NCBI GenBank assembly: GCA_024276745.1
Contig: JAJRWN010000078.1
Coordinates: 1 to 45,629 of the forward strand
Reading direction: 5' to 3'
Length of the DNA: 45,629 nt
Origin: Bacteroidota bacterium
GTDB taxonomy: Bacteria; Bacteroidota; Bacteroidia; Chitinophagales; S012-47
Every line of letters starts with the position of its first letter. The stretch's first letter is position 1. This document shows positions 4,313 through 17,388 of the stretch, in pieces. Position numbers and translations under genes: made by a program. The notes under the pieces are model-generated. The model saw only the letters and a program-made list of their open reading frames with translations. It was not told where the DNA came from and did no database searches.

Positions 4313-4514
4313 AGCACAATTTTTTAAGATTAATAATGCTGCAAGTTATACATTATTTTGATATTCTAAAAAGACTTAACAACGAAAAAGAAAAATTCTT
4401 TAGTACAATTCTTAAAGTTGTTATAAGTACAAATCACATGAACAATGAAAATCCCAGATTCTTTGTCAAGGCTGATAAATCAAGGGGGACACAGTATGAA
4501 TTTAAATAAAAAAG

Positions 4515-4587
4515 TGGTGCGGGGCAGGGTCGAACTGCCGACACCAGGATTTTCAGTCCTGTGCTCTACCAACTGAGCTACCGCACC
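4515..4587 (-). tRNA. tRNA-Phe (GAA)
   Basis: Reverse complement GGTGCGGTAGCTCAGTTGGTAGAGCACAGGACTGAAAATCCTGGTGTCGGCAGTTCGACCCTGCCCCGCACCA: 7-bp acceptor, D arm, anticodon GAA, TTCGA T loop. Confidence 0.97.
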
Positions 4588-6958: not shown

Positions 6959-7876
6959 TTAGAGGGGCAAAGCGATGGTGATGGTATCTCCTTCGGCAGG
7001 GCTAAGTTTATTTCCCTTCATCCAGGGGTTTAATAATTTCAGCATTTTCAAATTTGTATGTTGTTCGATAGCAAATTTTGCAAGGTTATCAATTGGTTCG
7101 CTAAGGAAATAATTTTGATAGGGAACAGGTTGATAAAGGTCGCTTTCATTAAAACAAAAGCCATATCGAGTGGGATCGGACAAGATTAATTTAAAAGCCA
7201 GTATGCGATACATATACCGGGCGGTTTCTTTATTCAGGTAGAGATTGTAGTAGTTTGATATTTGTTGTTGTTCGATGGATTGAATCAATCGGCTACTTCC
7301 CATATTATAGGCGGCAGCGGCTAATGTCCAGCTATGAAGTTTTTGATAAGCATCGTTCAGATATTTGCAAGCTGCTTTGGTTGAAGCTACTACGTCATAA
7401 CGCTGATCTATTTCGGATGATATTTGTAATCCGTATTGCTTTGCGGTTTTGGGCATAAATTGCCAGAATCCACCGGCTCCTGCCGGAGATACTATATTTT
7501 GAAGACCACTTTCGGCTACTGCCAAATATTTGAAATCACCCGGAATGTTGTTTTCTTTCAGTATTTGAGTAATAATCGGAAACCAACGATTGGCCAATTT
7601 GATGATTCTCAGGCTTGACGAATGCCAATAGGTATTAATCAGTAGTTCCCGGTCGAGATGTTCTGCTATATCCCATTCTTTTATGGGTACTTGTTCACCG
7701 GCAAAATCTATTTGATCCGGAAGACTCACTGCACAATTTCCTTGAGGCCCGCTTATTTTGGCATGATCTGTATCGAATGTATTTAAGGTTTCTTTAGTAT
7801 CTCCGGCAGTATTAACGATTATAAATACGCCTGAAATAATTATTATTCCGGTAAACCATGGCCATAATTTCTTCAT
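6959..7876 (-). CDS. Lytic transglycosylase (SLT domain, MltD-like)
   Basis: AVAESGLQNIVSPAGAGGFWQFMPKTAKQYGL and AAAAYNMGSSRL are SLT active-site motifs. Confidence 0.92.
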   Translation of the reverse strand: MKKLWPWFTGIIIISGVFIIVNTAGDTKETLNTFDTDHAKISGPQGNCAVSLPDQIDFAGEQVPIKEWDIAEHLDRELLINTYWHSSSLRIIKLANRWFPIITQILKENNIPGDFKYLAVAESGLQNIVSPAGAGGFWQFMPKTAKQYGLQISSEIDQRYDVVASTKAACKYLNDAYQKLHSWTLAAAAYNMGSSRLIQSIEQQQISNYYNLYLNKETARYMYRILAFKLILSDPTRYGFCFNESDLYQPVPYQNYFLSEPIDNLAKFAIEQHTNLKMLKLLNPWMKGNKLSPAEGDTITIALPL

Positions 7877-8003
7877 ATAACGTATTTTTTATTTCACTAC
7901 GAACCATAAACACTCACGAAGCAAAATAGCTTAAAGTGGTTTACGCCTGGTGGTGAACCAAGGATTATCTAAAAAAGCAAAAAACTTTTATCCGGTAAAA
8001 AGC

Positions 8004-10166
8004 TTAATAAAATTTATAGCGCAAATCTTCAACATTTGCTGCACTCGAAATGGCTTTAAAGACACCTTGTGAATAATCGGGTCTTTTTTGAGCAATCATT
8101 TGCTGTTGCAATGCTTTTGTGTCTTCGGGTTCTTCTTGTGTATTGGTCGATAATGTTTCAATCATAAATACACCGCCATTTCCTTTATAAGGACCTGTCA
8201 TTTCGTTGGGTGTTAATTTATAGGCAATGGCTGCTATGGCCGGTTCGAAACCAAGTCCTTCGATGTATTGACCGCTAAGCGATACTCTGGTTGCAGTTTT
8301 TACTTCAAGATTGAGTTTCTCGGCAATCATTTCAAGTGAGTTTGCCCCTACAATGCCATTGGCCATTTGCTCACTTAGCTTGTCTAACATCATATCCTGA
8401 GCAACAATTTCTGTAATCTGGTCTCTTACTTCTTCTACATCGGGCAAACCTTTTTCTCTTACCTTAGTCAGCAGAGCAACGATGTATTTATCAGATTTTA
8501 ATTCATTTTCGGTAAAAAGGCGCATATCATTTACTTTGGCATTATAAGCCCATCTGACTACGGTTCGGGCCGGTACATTAATACCGGGAACATTGATATC
8601 GTTGGTTTTTAAGTTGTCTCCATATCTTTTGGTCAATCCTGCTTCGGTAATGCCTTGTTCAAACAATTCGGGAGTTTTATGGCTGGTGTAAAACTGCGAT
8701 GCCTGGTTGTAAACACTGTCGCGTGTAGTAGCACCCGGAACAATTTTCTCTGATAAAAAACCAACTTTTACAGCCGGGTGTTTTTCGCTTTCATCCATGA
8801 TTTGAATTAAGTGTACACCCGCTTGAGATTCTACTTTAAATACATCGCCTTTATGATGGTCCAAAAAACATGCATTTTTGAATGAAGCAAAGAGGTTATC
8901 GTCCGGTTTTATCCAACCAATTTCACCCTTGTTTGCGCGGGTATTGGCATCGTCAGTCAATTTGATAACCAAGGAATCGAAACTTACTCCTTGCTGGTAT
9001 AATCCCATAATAGAATCCATTTTCATTCTTGCAGAATCCATGGTTCCATTGGCCTTAATGCTCGATAAAATATGTCTTACTTTGACGGAATCGGCAATAA
9101 TACGGTGATCAAGCACTTTTGCTACTCTCAAATATCCGTTTTCAGTCCAAGGTCCGATATAAGTACCGGTATCGGCACTAAAAATAGAATCGGACATAAT
9201 GGTTCTTAACTGAGGAGCAAATAGAAAATTTCCATTGTAGTTTTCGCTTGAATAGCGGGCAAGAAACAAGGAATCGTTGGGAGTAGATTGAAAATCGGTA
9301 TATTTTTCATCAATCCATTTTTCAGCAGTGAGCGTATCCTGATGAGTCGGAAGAATATCCCAAACCACAAATTCTATATTGCGGATAGCATCTGTTTCAA
9401 AAACAGATTTATGATCTTCCAGATATTGTTTCAGTTGTTCGTCAGTAGGTTTAAAATCTTGCTTATTCAGATTTGAAAAATTAAGAGCAACATATTTAAA
9501 ATCGACCGTAGAATTTCTTCTAACAAAGTCGTCTTTTGCCTGCCATGAAGGAACGTAATTATTTTTTTGAAGCAGTTCTAAATATTTCTGACGTCTGATA
9601 TTTTTTTTAATATCTTTTTCCAGAAAAAGATAAAATTGTTTTAAAGGATAAGCCTGATCACCGGGGCCAATTTGTGGTAATTGAGCTATAAAATTTGCCA
9701 TAGCCGAGCGGTCGAACGGTGCCGCTTGATTATTGGTGAGATATTGCCGATAGAAAGATTGTATTTCCTGGGTAGGAGACGATCCTGTAATATATTGCTG
9801 TAGTTCCTGAGGGCTTACATAAAGACCTAAATCTGAGTATATGTTGCCCATTACTACATCTTCAACCAGATTGTCCCAGGTTTGTTGTCTGATTTGGAAT
9901 ATATCCTGATCGCTTAATTGATATCCGTTTAACCAAACACCTGAATAATATTTGGTTTTTTCTTCCATTTGATCATACATCCGGTTAAACTGGGTGTATT
10001 CAATTTTTTGCCCTTCAATTTTGCCAACAATATTTTGATCTTTATTTCTATTGAATATCCCGGTTCTCGAATTGAGTGAATCCATGGCAAGAAAGCTTAC
10101 AATAGCAATACCGATTGCAGCCACAATCAGGCCACCTCGTTTTCTCAAACTCATTATAACTGCCAT
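8004..10166 (-). CDS. Membrane-anchored peptidyl-prolyl isomerase (SurA/PpiD-like)
   Basis: N-terminal TM anchor; SurA_N-like helical region; parvulin motif VKVRHILSSIKANG...FDSLVIKLTDDANTRANKGEIGWIKPDD. Confidence 0.92.
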   Translation of the reverse strand: MAVIMSLRKRGGLIVAAIGIAIVSFLAMDSLNSRTGIFNRNKDQNIVGKIEGQKIEYTQFNRMYDQMEEKTKYYSGVWLNGYQLSDQDIFQIRQQTWDNLVEDVVMGNIYSDLGLYVSPQELQQYITGSSPTQEIQSFYRQYLTNNQAAPFDRSAMANFIAQLPQIGPGDQAYPLKQFYLFLEKDIKKNIRRQKYLELLQKNNYVPSWQAKDDFVRRNSTVDFKYVALNFSNLNKQDFKPTDEQLKQYLEDHKSVFETDAIRNIEFVVWDILPTHQDTLTAEKWIDEKYTDFQSTPNDSLFLARYSSENYNGNFLFAPQLRTIMSDSIFSADTGTYIGPWTENGYLRVAKVLDHRIIADSVKVRHILSSIKANGTMDSARMKMDSIMGLYQQGVSFDSLVIKLTDDANTRANKGEIGWIKPDDNLFASFKNACFLDHHKGDVFKVESQAGVHLIQIMDESEKHPAVKVGFLSEKIVPGATTRDSVYNQASQFYTSHKTPELFEQGITEAGLTKRYGDNLKTNDINVPGINVPARTVVRWAYNAKVNDMRLFTENELKSDKYIVALLTKVREKGLPDVEEVRDQITEIVAQDMMLDKLSEQMANGIVGANSLEMIAEKLNLEVKTATRVSLSGQYIEGLGFEPAIAAIAYKLTPNEMTGPYKGNGGVFMIETLSTNTQEEPEDTKALQQQMIAQKRPDYSQGVFKAISSAANVEDLRYKFY

Positions 10167-11513: not shown

Positions 11514-11746
11514 GATGAACCGGAATTAGGTGTATGATTTGATTCTGAATGTTGCAGCATAATGCGGCTTTTTCTTTTTATAAACCACATAAAAATACTT
11601 AGTGCTGCAAGTAAGAGTAAAAAGTATCCGTTTTTATAGTCTTTTACACCGGAAATAAGCTTATAGATACCTAAAATGAGTGAGAGGCAGGCAATAATCA
11701 ACCAAGCCCACTCAAAGGTTTTTATCATTTGTATTTTTTTTAACAT
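11510..11746 (-). CDS. Small hypothetical membrane protein
   Basis: Two TM helices; overlaps the gldE-like start by 4 nt and the lptC-like 3' end, so translational coupling is likely. Confidence 0.55.
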   Translation of the reverse strand: MLKKIQMIKTFEWAWLIIACLSLILGIYKLISGVKDYKNGYFLLLLAALSIFMWFIKRKSRIMLQHSESNHTPNSGSS

Positions 11747-12266
11747 GGACTGTTCCTGTGATGTTTAAAATTTTATAATTACTTAAGTCTTGTTTTGCAC
11801 TAAATCCTGTTCCGGTCAATCGTTCATCGGGAGTAACAATTTTTACGAATTTATCAGATCTGATGCTTTGTTTGTTTTCATCCCAGATGAGTTCATCGGT
11901 AAATAATTGATAACCATCGGCATTAATGACTTGTACCGAATCACTAAATACTGTTTCGTTTTTGGTTTCGTATTTTATGGCTTTACGGGCACTAAGTTTT
12001 GTGCTTGTTGTGGAGCTGTCTCCATAAAATTCAATTTCAATTCCATCCGGAAATTCCAAATAGGCGTCTTTAACCTGATGTCTGATAATCAGAGGAGCTG
12101 TAAGGGTCATTTTTTGTATGCCTTCGGTGGAATAGTACATAACAACATTGCTGGCTCTTTCAAGGCTGGGTTCATACATTTTTGCGGTTTGCTTCACTTG
12201 CTGAATGTCGTTCCGGCAGGAAGTAAATACTAAAGAGACTATAAGTAAAAAGATGATTTTTAGCAT
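11712..12266 (-). CDS. lptC: LPS export periplasmic lipoprotein LptC
   Basis: Lipobox FTSC; TKLSARKAIKYETKNETVFSDSVQVINADGYQLFTDELIWDENKQSIRSDKFVKIVTPDERLTGTGFSAKQDLSNYKI is LptC-like. Confidence 0.85.
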   Translation of the reverse strand: MLKIIFLLIVSLVFTSCRNDIQQVKQTAKMYEPSLERASNVVMYYSTEGIQKMTLTAPLIIRHQVKDAYLEFPDGIEIEFYGDSSTTSTKLSARKAIKYETKNETVFSDSVQVINADGYQLFTDELIWDENKQSIRSDKFVKIVTPDERLTGTGFSAKQDLSNYKILNITGTVHVKKNTNDKNL

Positions 12267-12333: not shown

Positions 12334-13752
12334 TTATTTATCAGATGCTCTGATGGTTGTGGTTTCCTGTATCCAGCATTTTACGGTAAATGAATCGCCC
12401 AGATTGTAGCCACGACTAAATATTTCTTCAAATTTTGGCATATATTGGCTGTATTTGGCAATTTGTTTATTGGCTTCTGCGGCTACTGAAGGATCAACGG
12501 ATTTGGCTTTATACCATTTATCAATGGCAGGCCAAATGACAATCTGACTTTTCCATCCGGTTCCGGTTCCACACAGTTTTCCTGAACTGGCATATAAATT
12601 TCCAATTAGGATATAGGGTTGTCCCCAGTTTGTTTTGTATTTAAGTGCCTGATAGCTGTATTGACGTGCTTTAGGAAAATTTTTGAGTTTTGCATAATAT
12701 ATTAATGCAATTTTATAAGATAATTCTGCTTTTTGCTCTTGGTCTTCCACTTTAGCAATGGCATTTTCCATAAATTGAATTCCTTTATCGGAGTTTCCTT
12801 TATCAATATAGCAATCGGCAAGTTTCAGGGCCAGACTTGCGCTGGGTTCAATTTCATAGAGTTTATTGAACATTTCGATAATGGTATCGGTACAAGAGTT
12901 ACAATTGCCCAGTGCATTAAAGGCTTTTTTCCATATATCCTGATTATCAGGATTGTTTTGGTATGCATTGGTATAAAACGGAAGCAGGGTTTCGCAATTC
13001 AATACATTTTTTTCGGTAAGGTATGATACCACTCTATCCATTGCATTTTGATAATAAGTGGCATAACGTCCTTTCAGGTTATGATCTACAATTTCGGCTA
13101 CCCGTGCGTATTGATCCAGTAAATCTCCTACTTCAATTTCACCTTTGGCAAGCAATCGAAAATTTAATTTTATATAGGGTTCCAGCAAAAAATATTCTGC
13201 TTCCAGTCCGCTTTCATTGATGGCTTCATCCAGTGTGTTCCGTATGGCATCAATATTTTTTGGGGTATATCGCATCATATCGTAGGCTTTCCTGCCTAAA
13301 TTATAACCACGTTTACCAAAACAAATGATTCGATGATCATAGATAGAAAGCAAGGTATCGATATAGAGTGCTTTAGTGCTATCATTTTGCATCGTATCTA
13401 TGATAGATTTATAAATTTTTATACCATTGCTGTAAATAGCATCGTGAAACCCCGGTGCATTCCGGTAAACATAGCGCCAATAAGGAAGTGCTTCTACATA
13501 ATTTTGATGCGAATAAAATTCCATATATAGCGAAACATCATCGAGTGTTTTGTTGGTATCGGGGCCTAAAGAATCGCATTCACCTGCTATGTTGTTGAGC
13601 CATGTTTCGGGTAATATAGCAGATTCATTATTTGTATTTTCTGCTTGTTTTGGAGTTGTGCAAGCTTGTAGTCCGGTGGTATTTAATACCAAAACGAATG
13701 TTATTAAGGGTATTTTATTAAACCAATTATTCGTCATCAATTCCATAATCAC
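12334..13752 (-). CDS. TPR-repeat protein, secreted or lipid-anchored
   Basis: Hydrophobic N terminus ending in ACTTPK; helical repeats such as ALKLADCYIDKGNSDKGIQFMENAIAK and KAELSYKIALIYYAKLKNFPKARQYSYQALK. Confidence 0.8.
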   Translation of the reverse strand: MIMELMTNNWFNKIPLITFVLVLNTTGLQACTTPKQAENTNNESAILPETWLNNIAGECDSLGPDTNKTLDDVSLYMEFYSHQNYVEALPYWRYVYRNAPGFHDAIYSNGIKIYKSIIDTMQNDSTKALYIDTLLSIYDHRIICFGKRGYNLGRKAYDMMRYTPKNIDAIRNTLDEAINESGLEAEYFLLEPYIKLNFRLLAKGEIEVGDLLDQYARVAEIVDHNLKGRYATYYQNAMDRVVSYLTEKNVLNCETLLPFYTNAYQNNPDNQDIWKKAFNALGNCNSCTDTIIEMFNKLYEIEPSASLALKLADCYIDKGNSDKGIQFMENAIAKVEDQEQKAELSYKIALIYYAKLKNFPKARQYSYQALKYKTNWGQPYILIGNLYASSGKLCGTGTGWKSQIVIWPAIDKWYKAKSVDPSVAAEANKQIAKYSQYMPKFEEIFSRGYNLGDSFTVKCWIQETTTIRASDK

Positions 13753-13760
13753 TTTTTATT

Positions 13761-15191
13761 TTAATTGTATTTAGTTTTAAAAATCCAAAAATTATCATTC
13801 AAGTTCAAACCGAGTGTAAATTTGAAATAGTTTTCTTTTATCAAATTATTGGTAATAGAACCTGAACTTCCAAAATCAAAAGCAAAATTTATACTTGATG
13901 CTAAAGGACTTCTGGGTAATTTTTGTTTTACAGGAATACCAAAGCCAAATGTTATGCCAAATTCAGAAAGTGGGTTTTGATTGATCAATAGATTGGGTTT
14001 ACCGTAGAAAAAGCCACCCCTGTAAGTGAGTTTACTTAAAAAGTGAGTTTCTGCTTCAGCAAGAGAAGGTATATATTGAGCACCAAATTTTACTTTCCAA
14101 CTGTTTGTTAAGGGACTATTGACCAATAAACCGTTAAAAGCAGACCAGGTTGCCATACAGAAATCGGTTCCTATCATCCATTTGCTGCCTTTTTGTAATA
14201 CAAAACCTGCACCCAGGGTAGGTGGTAGTTTTAAGCTGGTAAGTCCATTATACCGGCTGCTTAATGAATCAAGATGTGATATATGGGATTCATCAATCAC
14301 AATAACCCGGTCGCGGGTAGTATCGCTTATCGTTCTTACGTTTATTGACGAATGCCCGTAAGCTCCAAATCTTATGGTTAAGCCGGATTTGATATCATGC
14401 TCATATTGAAGACCTGCATCCCAGGTTAATCCACCGGCATGATTTTGAATGGTTTCCCGCGTACCAAAAGAATTGATTTGATCCGGAAAGTAATTTGTTC
14501 GCATATTTTCCAAAGTGCCGAACAGGTAGGCTGCATTGGCACCCAAAGAAAATCCTTTATGTTTATATCCAATGCCGAAATTAAATTTATATAAGCGGCC
14601 ACTTCCTCTGAATACTTCGTTTTCGCGGCCAATCAAGGTATCTCTTGTTTGGCTTGTAAGGATATTATAGTTTACTATAGAATAGGGTATCAGGCCTATG
14701 CTTATTCCTCCAAATTTGGGAATAGGAAAGCCAAAATTCAAATAGGATAAAGAACCATCACCCGAAGGGTTGGTTCCGGATATATTTTGTGCATACCTGA
14801 AATCGGCATAAACACCGGTCTGTAAGGATGTGGCTTTGAATACATAAAACAGGGTATCGCGCAATATGGAATCTGTTACGGTCCGGGTAACTTCCCGGTT
14901 TTTAGCTTGATCGAAATAAGTAGTATCCTTTCTGATTTTATCGTAGTATTTGGCATATACTTCTTTGTAGAAATAGCCATACGAAGCAGGATTTGTGATA
15001 TTGATATTTTCTACTGATGCATAAGCAGCACTAATGCCTCCCATGGCCCGGTTTGAAGCAAATTGACTGGATAATAAATTGCCCAATCCGTAACGGGTAT
15101 AAGGCGCGTTTATTTGGGCAATTATTGAATGTGTACCTGATAATAAAATAATTAGCAATAATACCTTATGCTTTAATGTCATTATGTTCAA
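13761..15191 (-). CDS. Outer-membrane beta-barrel protein (FadL/OmpP1-like)
   Basis: Signal peptide, YTRYGLGNLLSSQFASNRAMGGISAAYASVENINITNPASYG, alternating beta-barrel strands, C-terminal aromatic residue. Confidence 0.8.
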   Translation of the reverse strand: MNIMTLKHKVLLLIILLSGTHSIIAQINAPYTRYGLGNLLSSQFASNRAMGGISAAYASVENINITNPASYGYFYKEVYAKYYDKIRKDTTYFDQAKNREVTRTVTDSILRDTLFYVFKATSLQTGVYADFRYAQNISGTNPSGDGSLSYLNFGFPIPKFGGISIGLIPYSIVNYNILTSQTRDTLIGRENEVFRGSGRLYKFNFGIGYKHKGFSLGANAAYLFGTLENMRTNYFPDQINSFGTRETIQNHAGGLTWDAGLQYEHDIKSGLTIRFGAYGHSSINVRTISDTTRDRVIVIDESHISHLDSLSSRYNGLTSLKLPPTLGAGFVLQKGSKWMIGTDFCMATWSAFNGLLVNSPLTNSWKVKFGAQYIPSLAEAETHFLSKLTYRGGFFYGKPNLLINQNPLSEFGITFGFGIPVKQKLPRSPLASSINFAFDFGSSGSITNNLIKENYFKFTLGLNLNDNFWIFKTKYN

Positions 15192-15903
15192 GGATTTTAA
15201 TGAGACCGGTGGCTACTAATTTAGGGTATGCAAATATCTTACTTTTCAGCTTAGTTTCAAAAATTTTTAAATCTCCACCTGTAATCATTACCCGCAGATC
15301 AGGAATTCTCTTCTTGTAATCTTGGATAAATCCTTCGATTTCTAATATCGTTCCATGCATCACTCCGCTTTGAATAGATGATTTGGTGTTTTTTCCACTT
15401 ACAGGAATTTCTTTTGGCCGGCTTATTAACGGTAAGTGATCGGTATAATTATGCAGTGCTTTAAATTTCATATCAATACTGGGTAAAATGCTTCCTCCTT
15501 TATAAATACCTTCGGCTGTCAGCAAATCTATGGTTATACATGTACCGGCATCTATAATCAGTATATTTTCTTTTGGCCGAATACTATGTGCTCCTGTTGC
15601 TGCTGCCAATCGATCGAGACCCAGGGTTTCGGGTGTTTCATAATCAATCATTATAGGCAGCGGTGTATCAGGTGTTAGTAATAGAAAATATGCTAATTCG
15701 TTCAGAAGTTTTATCAGGCCTGAGTCTGCTTTCCGTACCGATGATAAAATAGCTTTTTTTATTTGAAATTTATTGATGATATGCCTGATATCTTCATCCT
15801 GAATGCTTGGTTTATGCTTGTAATACACAAATTGATCTCCATCATGAACGGCTAGTTTCACCAAGGTATTTCCTGCATCTATAATCAATTTATATTGGTT
15901 CAT
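15166..15903 (-). CDS. coaX: Type III pantothenate kinase
   Basis: LIIDAGNTLVKLAVHDG, TLGLDRLAAATGA, ILIIDAGTCITIDLL, GGSILPSIDMKFKALHNYTDHLP, MITGGD. Confidence 0.95.
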   Translation of the reverse strand: MNQYKLIIDAGNTLVKLAVHDGDQFVYYKHKPSIQDEDIRHIINKFQIKKAILSSVRKADSGLIKLLNELAYFLLLTPDTPLPIMIDYETPETLGLDRLAAATGAHSIRPKENILIIDAGTCITIDLLTAEGIYKGGSILPSIDMKFKALHNYTDHLPLISRPKEIPVSGKNTKSSIQSGVMHGTILEIEGFIQDYKKRIPDLRVMITGGDLKIFETKLKSKIFAYPKLVATGLIKILEHNDIKA

Positions 15904-15982: not shown

Positions 15983-16297
15983 TTACTGATCGATATAACC
16001 CGCTTCACTTTTCCAGTCGGTATAATAAATAATTAAGTTTGCTTCCGATTTCCATTCAGTAAAATATACTTGCCAGTCTGCTTCACTTTTCCAATCAGTC
16101 CAATACCAAATACCACTTTCCGGTTCTGCTTCGCTTTTCCAATCGCTGATGTAAACTATCATATCTGCTTCCGATTTCCATTCGGTGACATATACAATCT
16201 TATCTGCTTCCGATTTCCATTCGGTTTGATAAACTACCTGAGCATCAGCATTTTGTAAGCCAATGCTTAGTAAGGTAAATATGATTAAAATTTTCAT
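15983..16297 (-). CDS. Small exported protein of six tandem 13-16 aa WKSEA repeats; probable DUF6150 / 7(1) septoil-knot family
   Basis: Signal peptide MKILIIFTLLSIGLQNADA, then VVYQTEWKSEADK IVYVTEWKSEADM IVYISDWKSEAEPESG IWYWTDWKSEADW QVYFTEWKSEANL IIYYTDWKSEAGY IDQ. Confidence 0.8.
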   Translation of the reverse strand: MKILIIFTLLSIGLQNADAQVVYQTEWKSEADKIVYVTEWKSEADMIVYISDWKSEAEPESGIWYWTDWKSEADWQVYFTEWKSEANLIIYYTDWKSEAGYIDQ

Positions 16298-16334: not shown

Positions 16335-17063
16335 TTATTGTTCCATGCTGAGCATGTCTTGATAATTAATAACTCTTTTCATGATTAATCCATCATCTAA
16401 GAACCAAAAATTAAGCGGTTGATTATTTAATATATTGTGTGATAGGTCTAATGATAATTTTGATACATTGGCCACAATGTTTGGATTTGTTTCAGCGCCT
16501 TCTTTCGATGCCATTTTTAATTGGTATGTGTTCGATTCTTTATCGCACATAAAGACAAAACCGTCTTTTTCTTTAATATAATTAGAGCTAATCATAAAAT
16601 CACAAATATTACCGGCTTCTGCTTTTTTTATGGCATCAGTATATATCATGGCATTATCTCCGAATCTGATGATGCCCAAGGGTAATAATTTCAGTGTTTT
16701 AAAACGAGGATCACACATGTCGATATTGATAGTATCCAGATTTAAAATTGAATAGGCGGTTTGAAATCCAAGTGTTTTTAAGAGTGATATCGTTGAGGCA
16801 TTATTAAGATAATCTTCTTTAATCACAAAGTTTATATGAGTGATTTTGTTGTCATCAAGCAGCAATTGCACAGAACGTTTGTCTCCATCTTTGCTAAAAA
16901 AACTGTTGTTGGTTAAAAAATCGGCAACTTGTTGTGCCTGAGCTTCATTGATTCCGTTTTTATAGAAAACATCGCCACCTTCTACTTCAACTTTCTTGCC
17001 GTAATTGGAGCATGATGCCAGCAGTAAAATCAGGGTTAAAAGGCTAATAATTGCACTTTTCAT
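16335..17063 (-). CDS. Hypothetical lipoprotein
   Basis: N-terminal lipobox (LILLLASCSNYG); soluble remainder; 37 nt upstream of the WKSEA gene on the same strand. Confidence 0.7.
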   Translation of the reverse strand: MKSAIISLLTLILLLASCSNYGKKVEVEGGDVFYKNGINEAQAQQVADFLTNNSFFSKDGDKRSVQLLLDDNKITHINFVIKEDYLNNASTISLLKTLGFQTAYSILNLDTINIDMCDPRFKTLKLLPLGIIRFGDNAMIYTDAIKKAEAGNICDFMISSNYIKEKDGFVFMCDKESNTYQLKMASKEGAETNPNIVANVSKLSLDLSHNILNNQPLNFWFLDDGLIMKRVINYQDMLSMEQ

Positions 17064-17079: not shown

Positions 17080-17388
17080 TTAGAAATTTATCTGCAAGGG
17101 TTTATAAATTTTATTATCTAAAATACTGTGTTCAAAGATATTAATAAGATTGGATTTATCTACGTGACCATACCAAATAGCTTGCGGATAGATAACCAAA
17201 GCATGCCCATAGCTGCAAGCATCAAGGCAACCGGCCCGGTTAATTCTAACCTGCCCGCTCAAATGATGTTCTCGTACTAGTTTTTTTAAACTGTTGATGA
17301 TATCGATACCTTCGTTTTCTCCACAGAATGAACGACCGTCTTTCCGTTCGTTTGTGCATACAAATACATGCTTTTTAAATCGAGACAT
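17080..17388 (-). CDS. (2Fe-2S) ferredoxin-domain protein (thioredoxin-like ferredoxin)
   Basis: HVFVCTNERKDGRSFCGENEG ... VRINRAGCLDACSYGHALVIYPQAIWYGHV. Confidence 0.9.
   Translation of the reverse strand: MSRFKKHVFVCTNERKDGRSFCGENEGIDIINSLKKLVREHHLSGQVRINRAGCLDACSYGHALVIYPQAIWYGHVDKSNLINIFEHSILDNKIYKPLQINF

Follow-up and report, generated by a model that had tools for sequence, protein, structure and literature searches.

A six-repeat exported DUF6150 protein from the Bacteroidota and its suggestive likeness to the 7(1)-knotted fold of Q9PR55

What fold and what function might belong to a small exported protein that carries one and the same pentapeptide core six times? The question is raised by a gene at 15983..16297 (minus strand) of a stretch of Bacteroidota DNA of 45,629 nucleotides, which is termed the window. 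The coding sequence begins with ATG, comprises 104 amino acids plus the stop codon and coincides exactly with the reading frame named in a preliminary description of this DNA; its assignment is based on the open reading frame, a profile match and purifying selection. In comparison with the genes of L002, L003 and L004, which lie nearest to the window protein in the tree, albeit without strong support, synonymous differences have reached or nearly reached saturation (pS 0.70-0.84), whereas dN across pairs among the four is only 0.17-0.27. The reading frame is therefore a real gene, and it is under purifying selection. A whole-genome profile search revealed a single copy of the family in the genome of the window.

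The mature domain of 85 amino acids (15986..16240, minus strand; QVVYQTEWKSEADKIVYVTEWKSEADMIVYISDWKSEAEPESGIWYWTDWKSEADWQVYFTEWKSEANLIIYYTDWKSEAGYIDQ), delineated by its composition and by a structural model with a mean pLDDT of 92.8, starts with Gln and is filled by six units of the form [hydrophobic]-Y-x-[TS]-[ED]-W-K-S-E-A, so that the six short repeats previously described for a mature protein of about 85 residues are directly visible. The WKSEA cores begin at residues 27, 40, 53, 69, 82 and 95 (16205..16219, 16166..16180, 16127..16141, 16079..16093, 16040..16054 and 16001..16015, respectively, all on the minus strand). Their spacing of 13, 13, 16, 13 and 13 residues defines two groups of three 13-residue units, between which, after repeat 3 and before repeat 4, a central segment EPESG (16112..16126, minus strand) precedes a Trp that is conserved in alignments of the family. 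The earlier wording of "near-invariant" cores can be sharpened, since all six repeats have an identical core. When the mature sequence was shuffled 20,000 times, no 5-mer occurred more than twice, compared with six occurrences of WKSEA in the real protein. At the DNA level, Tandem Repeats Finder reports a 39-base array at 16125-16225 which covers part of the repeat region. The mature protein contains neither Cys nor His, has a pI of about 4.1 and is rich in aromatic residues (18 of 85).

Residues 1-19 (MKILIIFTLLSIGLQNADA; 16241..16297, minus strand) constitute a signal peptide with a hydrophobic core (mean Kyte-Doolittle value 2.8 over residues 3-14) and an AxA|Q site, the predicted cleavage ADA|Q being read by eye. 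A Gln at position +1 is found in 35 of 40 members of the family, apparently phage-borne copies among them. In Bacteroidetes, signal peptidase I has been described to expose such a Gln, which is then cyclised to pyroglutamate (PMC5837995; PMC10653852), and the window protein conforms to this Q-rule for Bacteroidota Sec/SPI substrates. Export by a Sec-type signal peptide, already proposed in the preliminary description, is thus well supported by the hydrophobic segment, the ADA|Q site and the like arrangement in relatives. A few distant relatives (L082 and L086) have no signal peptide. In L086 the product of the gene at 7186-7905 (minus strand) has an N-terminal DUF6150-like repeat region devoid of the central segment, to which a Ser-rich linker, a hydrophobic stretch and another domain at the C-terminus are attached, and possibly represents a different architecture. 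In L084 two tandem DUF6150-like genes (7895-8975) both encode signal peptides and degenerate repeats.

A Pfam HMM search bore out the family assignment of the preliminary description: the window protein matches PF19647 (DUF6150) over profile positions 6-89 of 98 with an E-value of 3.6e-13 and 49.8 bits, compared with a curated cut-off of 27, and is thereby confirmed as a member of a known family of unknown function. Of 60 relatives sampled within the same family or order, 18 carry a member, as do 18 of 299 genomes from a phylum-wide sample; the 14 control genomes yielded none. The six-unit layout is common to the members in alignments of 23 and 40 sequences, except for a few degenerate ones; G62 and W64 of the central G-x-W motif are invariant in the 23-member alignment, and the motif spacing across the central segment is restricted to 14-16 residues in 35 members. 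The propellers of LRP6, the top phmmer matches, were rejected as relatives on account of coincidental YWTD motifs, and the matches to AflY and ExbD were dismissed as noise.

The preliminary description had linked the repeats to a protein backbone in a 7(1) knot, after which DUF6150 was presumably renamed; in the Pfam version searched PF19647 is still named DUF6150, and our literature search found no paper tying this family to the knot. AlphaFold2, supplied with an alignment of 15 rows (the window protein and loci from the related-locus search), produced a best model with a mean pLDDT of 92.8 and a pTM of 0.78, the only one of five models above 90 (the others reaching 82.5, 72.8, 71.1 and 69.7). 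It consists of six strands (residues 2-5, 14-18, 27-31, 44-48, 56-61 and 69-73) between which the S-E-A residues form short helical turns. An alignment of six sequences gave a useless model with a pLDDT of 37. When the best model was compared by Foldseek with 350,542 PDB chains, seven matches with E <= 10 were obtained, of which ranks 1-4 are chains of Q9PR55 (8iwa, 8iwb and 8jrm; E 0.04 to 1.1) and the remainder is noise. Q9PR55 of Ureaplasma urealyticum was predicted (PMC9278004) and subsequently solved (PDB 8IWA; PMC13352647) as a 7(1) knot, and its homologue P73136 is predicted to form a 5(1) knot, the pair indicating that members of one fold family can differ in knot type (PMC9278004). 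The matches to Q9PR55 are weak (E 0.04 and probability 0.66 at best, TM 0.34, rmsd 10 Å, 16-20% identity), and the TM value and rmsd imply that the model and Q9PR55 do not superpose in the Foldseek alignment; this could result from misregistered repeats or from a different topology.

The Q9PR55 fold had been named beforehand in the preliminary description, so that its appearance at rank 1 counts, and the pLDDT-37 model of the same sequence, used as a control, retrieved mostly antibody domains, Q9PR55 being absent from the 50 matches ranked highest, so that composition alone does not account for the match. A fold search of a viral structure library with the model gave no match. Q9PR55 (8iwa, 8iwb, 8jrm) was likewise absent from PDB sequence and profile searches with family members; since the HMMER filters drop weak matches, distant homology is still compatible with this result. 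The proposed link to the 7(1) knot has thus gained a first-ranked structural match, while an E-value of 0.04, a TM value of 0.34 and the missing sequence link keep the kinship suggestive only. An entangled fold appears likely.

Our leading proposal, to which we assign about an even chance, is that the exported DUF6150 protein adopts an entangled beta fold of the Q9PR55 type and acts by multivalent binding or capping of a partner in the envelope or at the surface rather than as an enzyme. The mature chain would form a compact entangled structure whose topology might be that of a torus-type knot such as 7(1) or one closely related to it, and such a knotted fold would render the protein rigid and protease-resistant outside the cytoplasm. 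Its six equivalent turns would display the same lineage-specific tetrapeptide, here W-K-S-E, as expected for multivalent binding or capping. An enzymatic role is unlikely because Cys and His are lacking and lineages differ freely in their core residues.

The most serious competitor, doubtful as we consider it, is an unknotted repeat fold such as a short beta-solenoid or prism with a structural or binding role, which would share with Q9PR55 only the local strand-turn geometry. The TM value of 0.34, the high rmsd and the regular 13-residue repeats typical of solenoids speak in its favour, as does the fact that the topology of AlphaFold models can reportedly be wrong, a matter said to be the subject of one paper. 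However, the PDB is rich in solenoids and none is found among the seven matches with E <= 10; the confident plain beta-solenoid which the preliminary description had named beforehand as the outcome opposed to its proposal did not appear. Moreover, the layout of three plus three units around a nearly fixed central segment would better suit a two-fold intertwined chain than a coil of uniform build.

Further clues to the function come from the way in which the repeats evolve. Within a protein, core positions 0 to +3 are alike (0.68 identity in 35 members), compared with a mean of 0.35 and a maximum of 0.39 when repeats are dealt among proteins at fixed index, and between proteins the core identity is nearly equal for the same and for different repeat indices. 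Offsets -5, -3 and +5 behave oppositely, being specific to the repeat index in the same 35 members. The uniformity within proteins indicates that each lineage tends to one core, such as WKSE, YKYD, YASR, AEYK, YENQ or YESQ, and uses it up to six times; WKSEA is specific to the lineage of the window. At the third core position, 13 of 19 proteins draw their Ser codons from one class only (AGY or TCN throughout), compared with 2.1 expected from neighbouring genes, a figure to be read in view of the relatedness of the proteins and the slow change of Ser codon class. For many lineages this purity suggests common descent of the repeats at the DNA level or conversion of short tracts. In the window gene, repeats 1-6 use TCG, TCG, AGC, AGT, TCG and AGT, a mixture which shows that core identity is held there at the protein level. 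Recent whole-repeat duplication as the sole cause of the uniform cores was discarded, given the index-specific strand positions and the mixed Ser codons of the window.

From these uniform cores we infer multivalent binding, and the same pattern can be turned into a clearly less probable alternative, a surface binder of the lectin or ice-binding type, knotted or not, whose patches of aromatic, Lys, Ser and Glu residues attach to a repeating ligand, for instance polysaccharide or ice. Export, the small size, the six equal motifs and the high aromatic content would suit this function, and a motif that is kept uniform within a lineage but differs from one lineage to the next would be expected of a surface matched to a changing ligand. 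Yet neither a lectin nor an ice-binding family or fold came up in the profile and PDB fold searches, and T-x-T ice-binding arrays are absent.

Downstream of the DUF6150 gene, all on the minus strand and supported by synteny, follow coaX for a type III pantothenate kinase as next gene (15166..15903; PF03309, 5.5e-40), a gene for an outer-membrane protein weakly resembling FadL/TodX (13761..15191; PF03349, 2.9e-4, below cut-off), one for a TPR protein (12334..13752; PF14559, 2.3e-5) and one for an LptC-related protein (11712..12266; PF06835, 6.9e-11, 42.5 bits versus 21). The same order and strand are retained in five genomes, namely the window, L059, L061, L066 and L067, and L064 has parts of the coaX-LptC block on the opposite strand. 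Upstream, at a distance of 37 bp, an open reading frame for a lipoprotein-like protein of 242 amino acids (16335..17063, minus strand) is perhaps co-transcribed with the DUF6150 gene; its product matches no Pfam family above cut-off, and in the neighbour clusters it was not found beside relatives. These clusters contain no partner gene common to the whole DUF6150 family. A relative of thioredoxin-like [2Fe-2S] ferredoxins (17080-17388; NCBIfam fdxn_Clost, 2.8e-20, below cut-off) also adjoins the DUF6150 gene in L059. The only tRNA gene of the window is tRNA-Phe (gaa) at 4514-4587.

Members of the family are also present on IMG/VR contigs (L024, L045/L046, L089, L090, L093/L094/L102 and L095), with signal peptides in the copies L024:3720-4052, L045:4959-5288, L089:5974-6327, L090:5968-6276, L095:606-953 and L102:6001-6381. 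The L045/L046 contigs of 344 and 348 kb carry a DNA primase gene near DUF6150, L089 carries CobS/CobT-like phage genes, and L095 a thymidylate synthase gene; in L090 the copy is located on a 266 kb contig. Such contigs are apparently phage; some contigs, e.g. L100, may be chromosomal. None of three DUF6150 queries found a counterpart among 50,697 phage records, and the queries tried gave no match in plasmid record collections; the PHROGs score of the window protein, 20.9 bits without a passing stretch, is not convincing, the L045 copy matches no PHROG, and PADLOC yielded no match. A phage-spread fitness factor kept by resident bacteria, acting for example by receptor masking or another change of the cell surface, would account for the several distinct IMG/VR contigs, some near phage-type genes, for the patchy occurrence within the phylum and for the different neighbourhoods of L002, L003 and L004, to which the window protein is most similar in sequence. 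We regard it as improbable in view of the fixed chromosomal place beside coaX in the five genomes of the window's clade and the failure of the three queries among the phage records.

The weakest reading regards the protein as the repetitive precursor of a ribosomally synthesised, modified peptide, the Trp-Lys cores serving as maturase substrate. It can draw on identical short cores in tandem behind a leader and on a sub-threshold NCBIfam radical SAM maturase match that amounts to noise (13.5 bits versus 350), but is rejected as highly implausible because neither the close neighbours nor the genes conserved beside relatives include a recognised maturase, the leader is of the Sec type, the cores vary to YESQ, YASR and AEYK, and the model is confidently folded.

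Protein knots of high complexity are rare, Q9PR55 being the solved example of a 7(1) knot. If the exported DUF6150 family shared this topology, nearly identical repeats would tie a deep knot after unfolded passage through the Sec system, and knotting outside the cytoplasm would become directly testable. A high-order knot would further imply that knot complexity arises from adding windings, as the 5(1)/7(1) pair of P73136 and Q9PR55 suggests. The boldest version, a near-perfect tandem-repeat protein, exported and phage-carried, which ties a high-order torus knot and whose six turns co-evolve as a lineage-specific multivalent display, is held by us only tentatively, with rather low expectation. 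The lineage-switching uniform core together with the phage-borne copies provides a first handle on the function of DUF6150.

Compared with its DUF6150 relatives, the window protein shares the six repeats, the central G-x-W motif and the signal peptide, whereas many relatives exhibit Y-E-S-Q or other cores in place of the WKSEA that is invariant here and end in a C-terminal tail K-x-H-L-x-Y which is absent here. The Knotted Solenoid proteins with their 3(1) knot combine repeats and a knot as proposed for the window protein, but are described as differently built solenoid coils (PMC13123833), and they did not match the model in the PDB fold search. Q9PR55, despite the weak structural match and the lack of a link in sequence searches, is the sole solved fold above noise for the window model and, with 89 amino acids, a protein of similar size.
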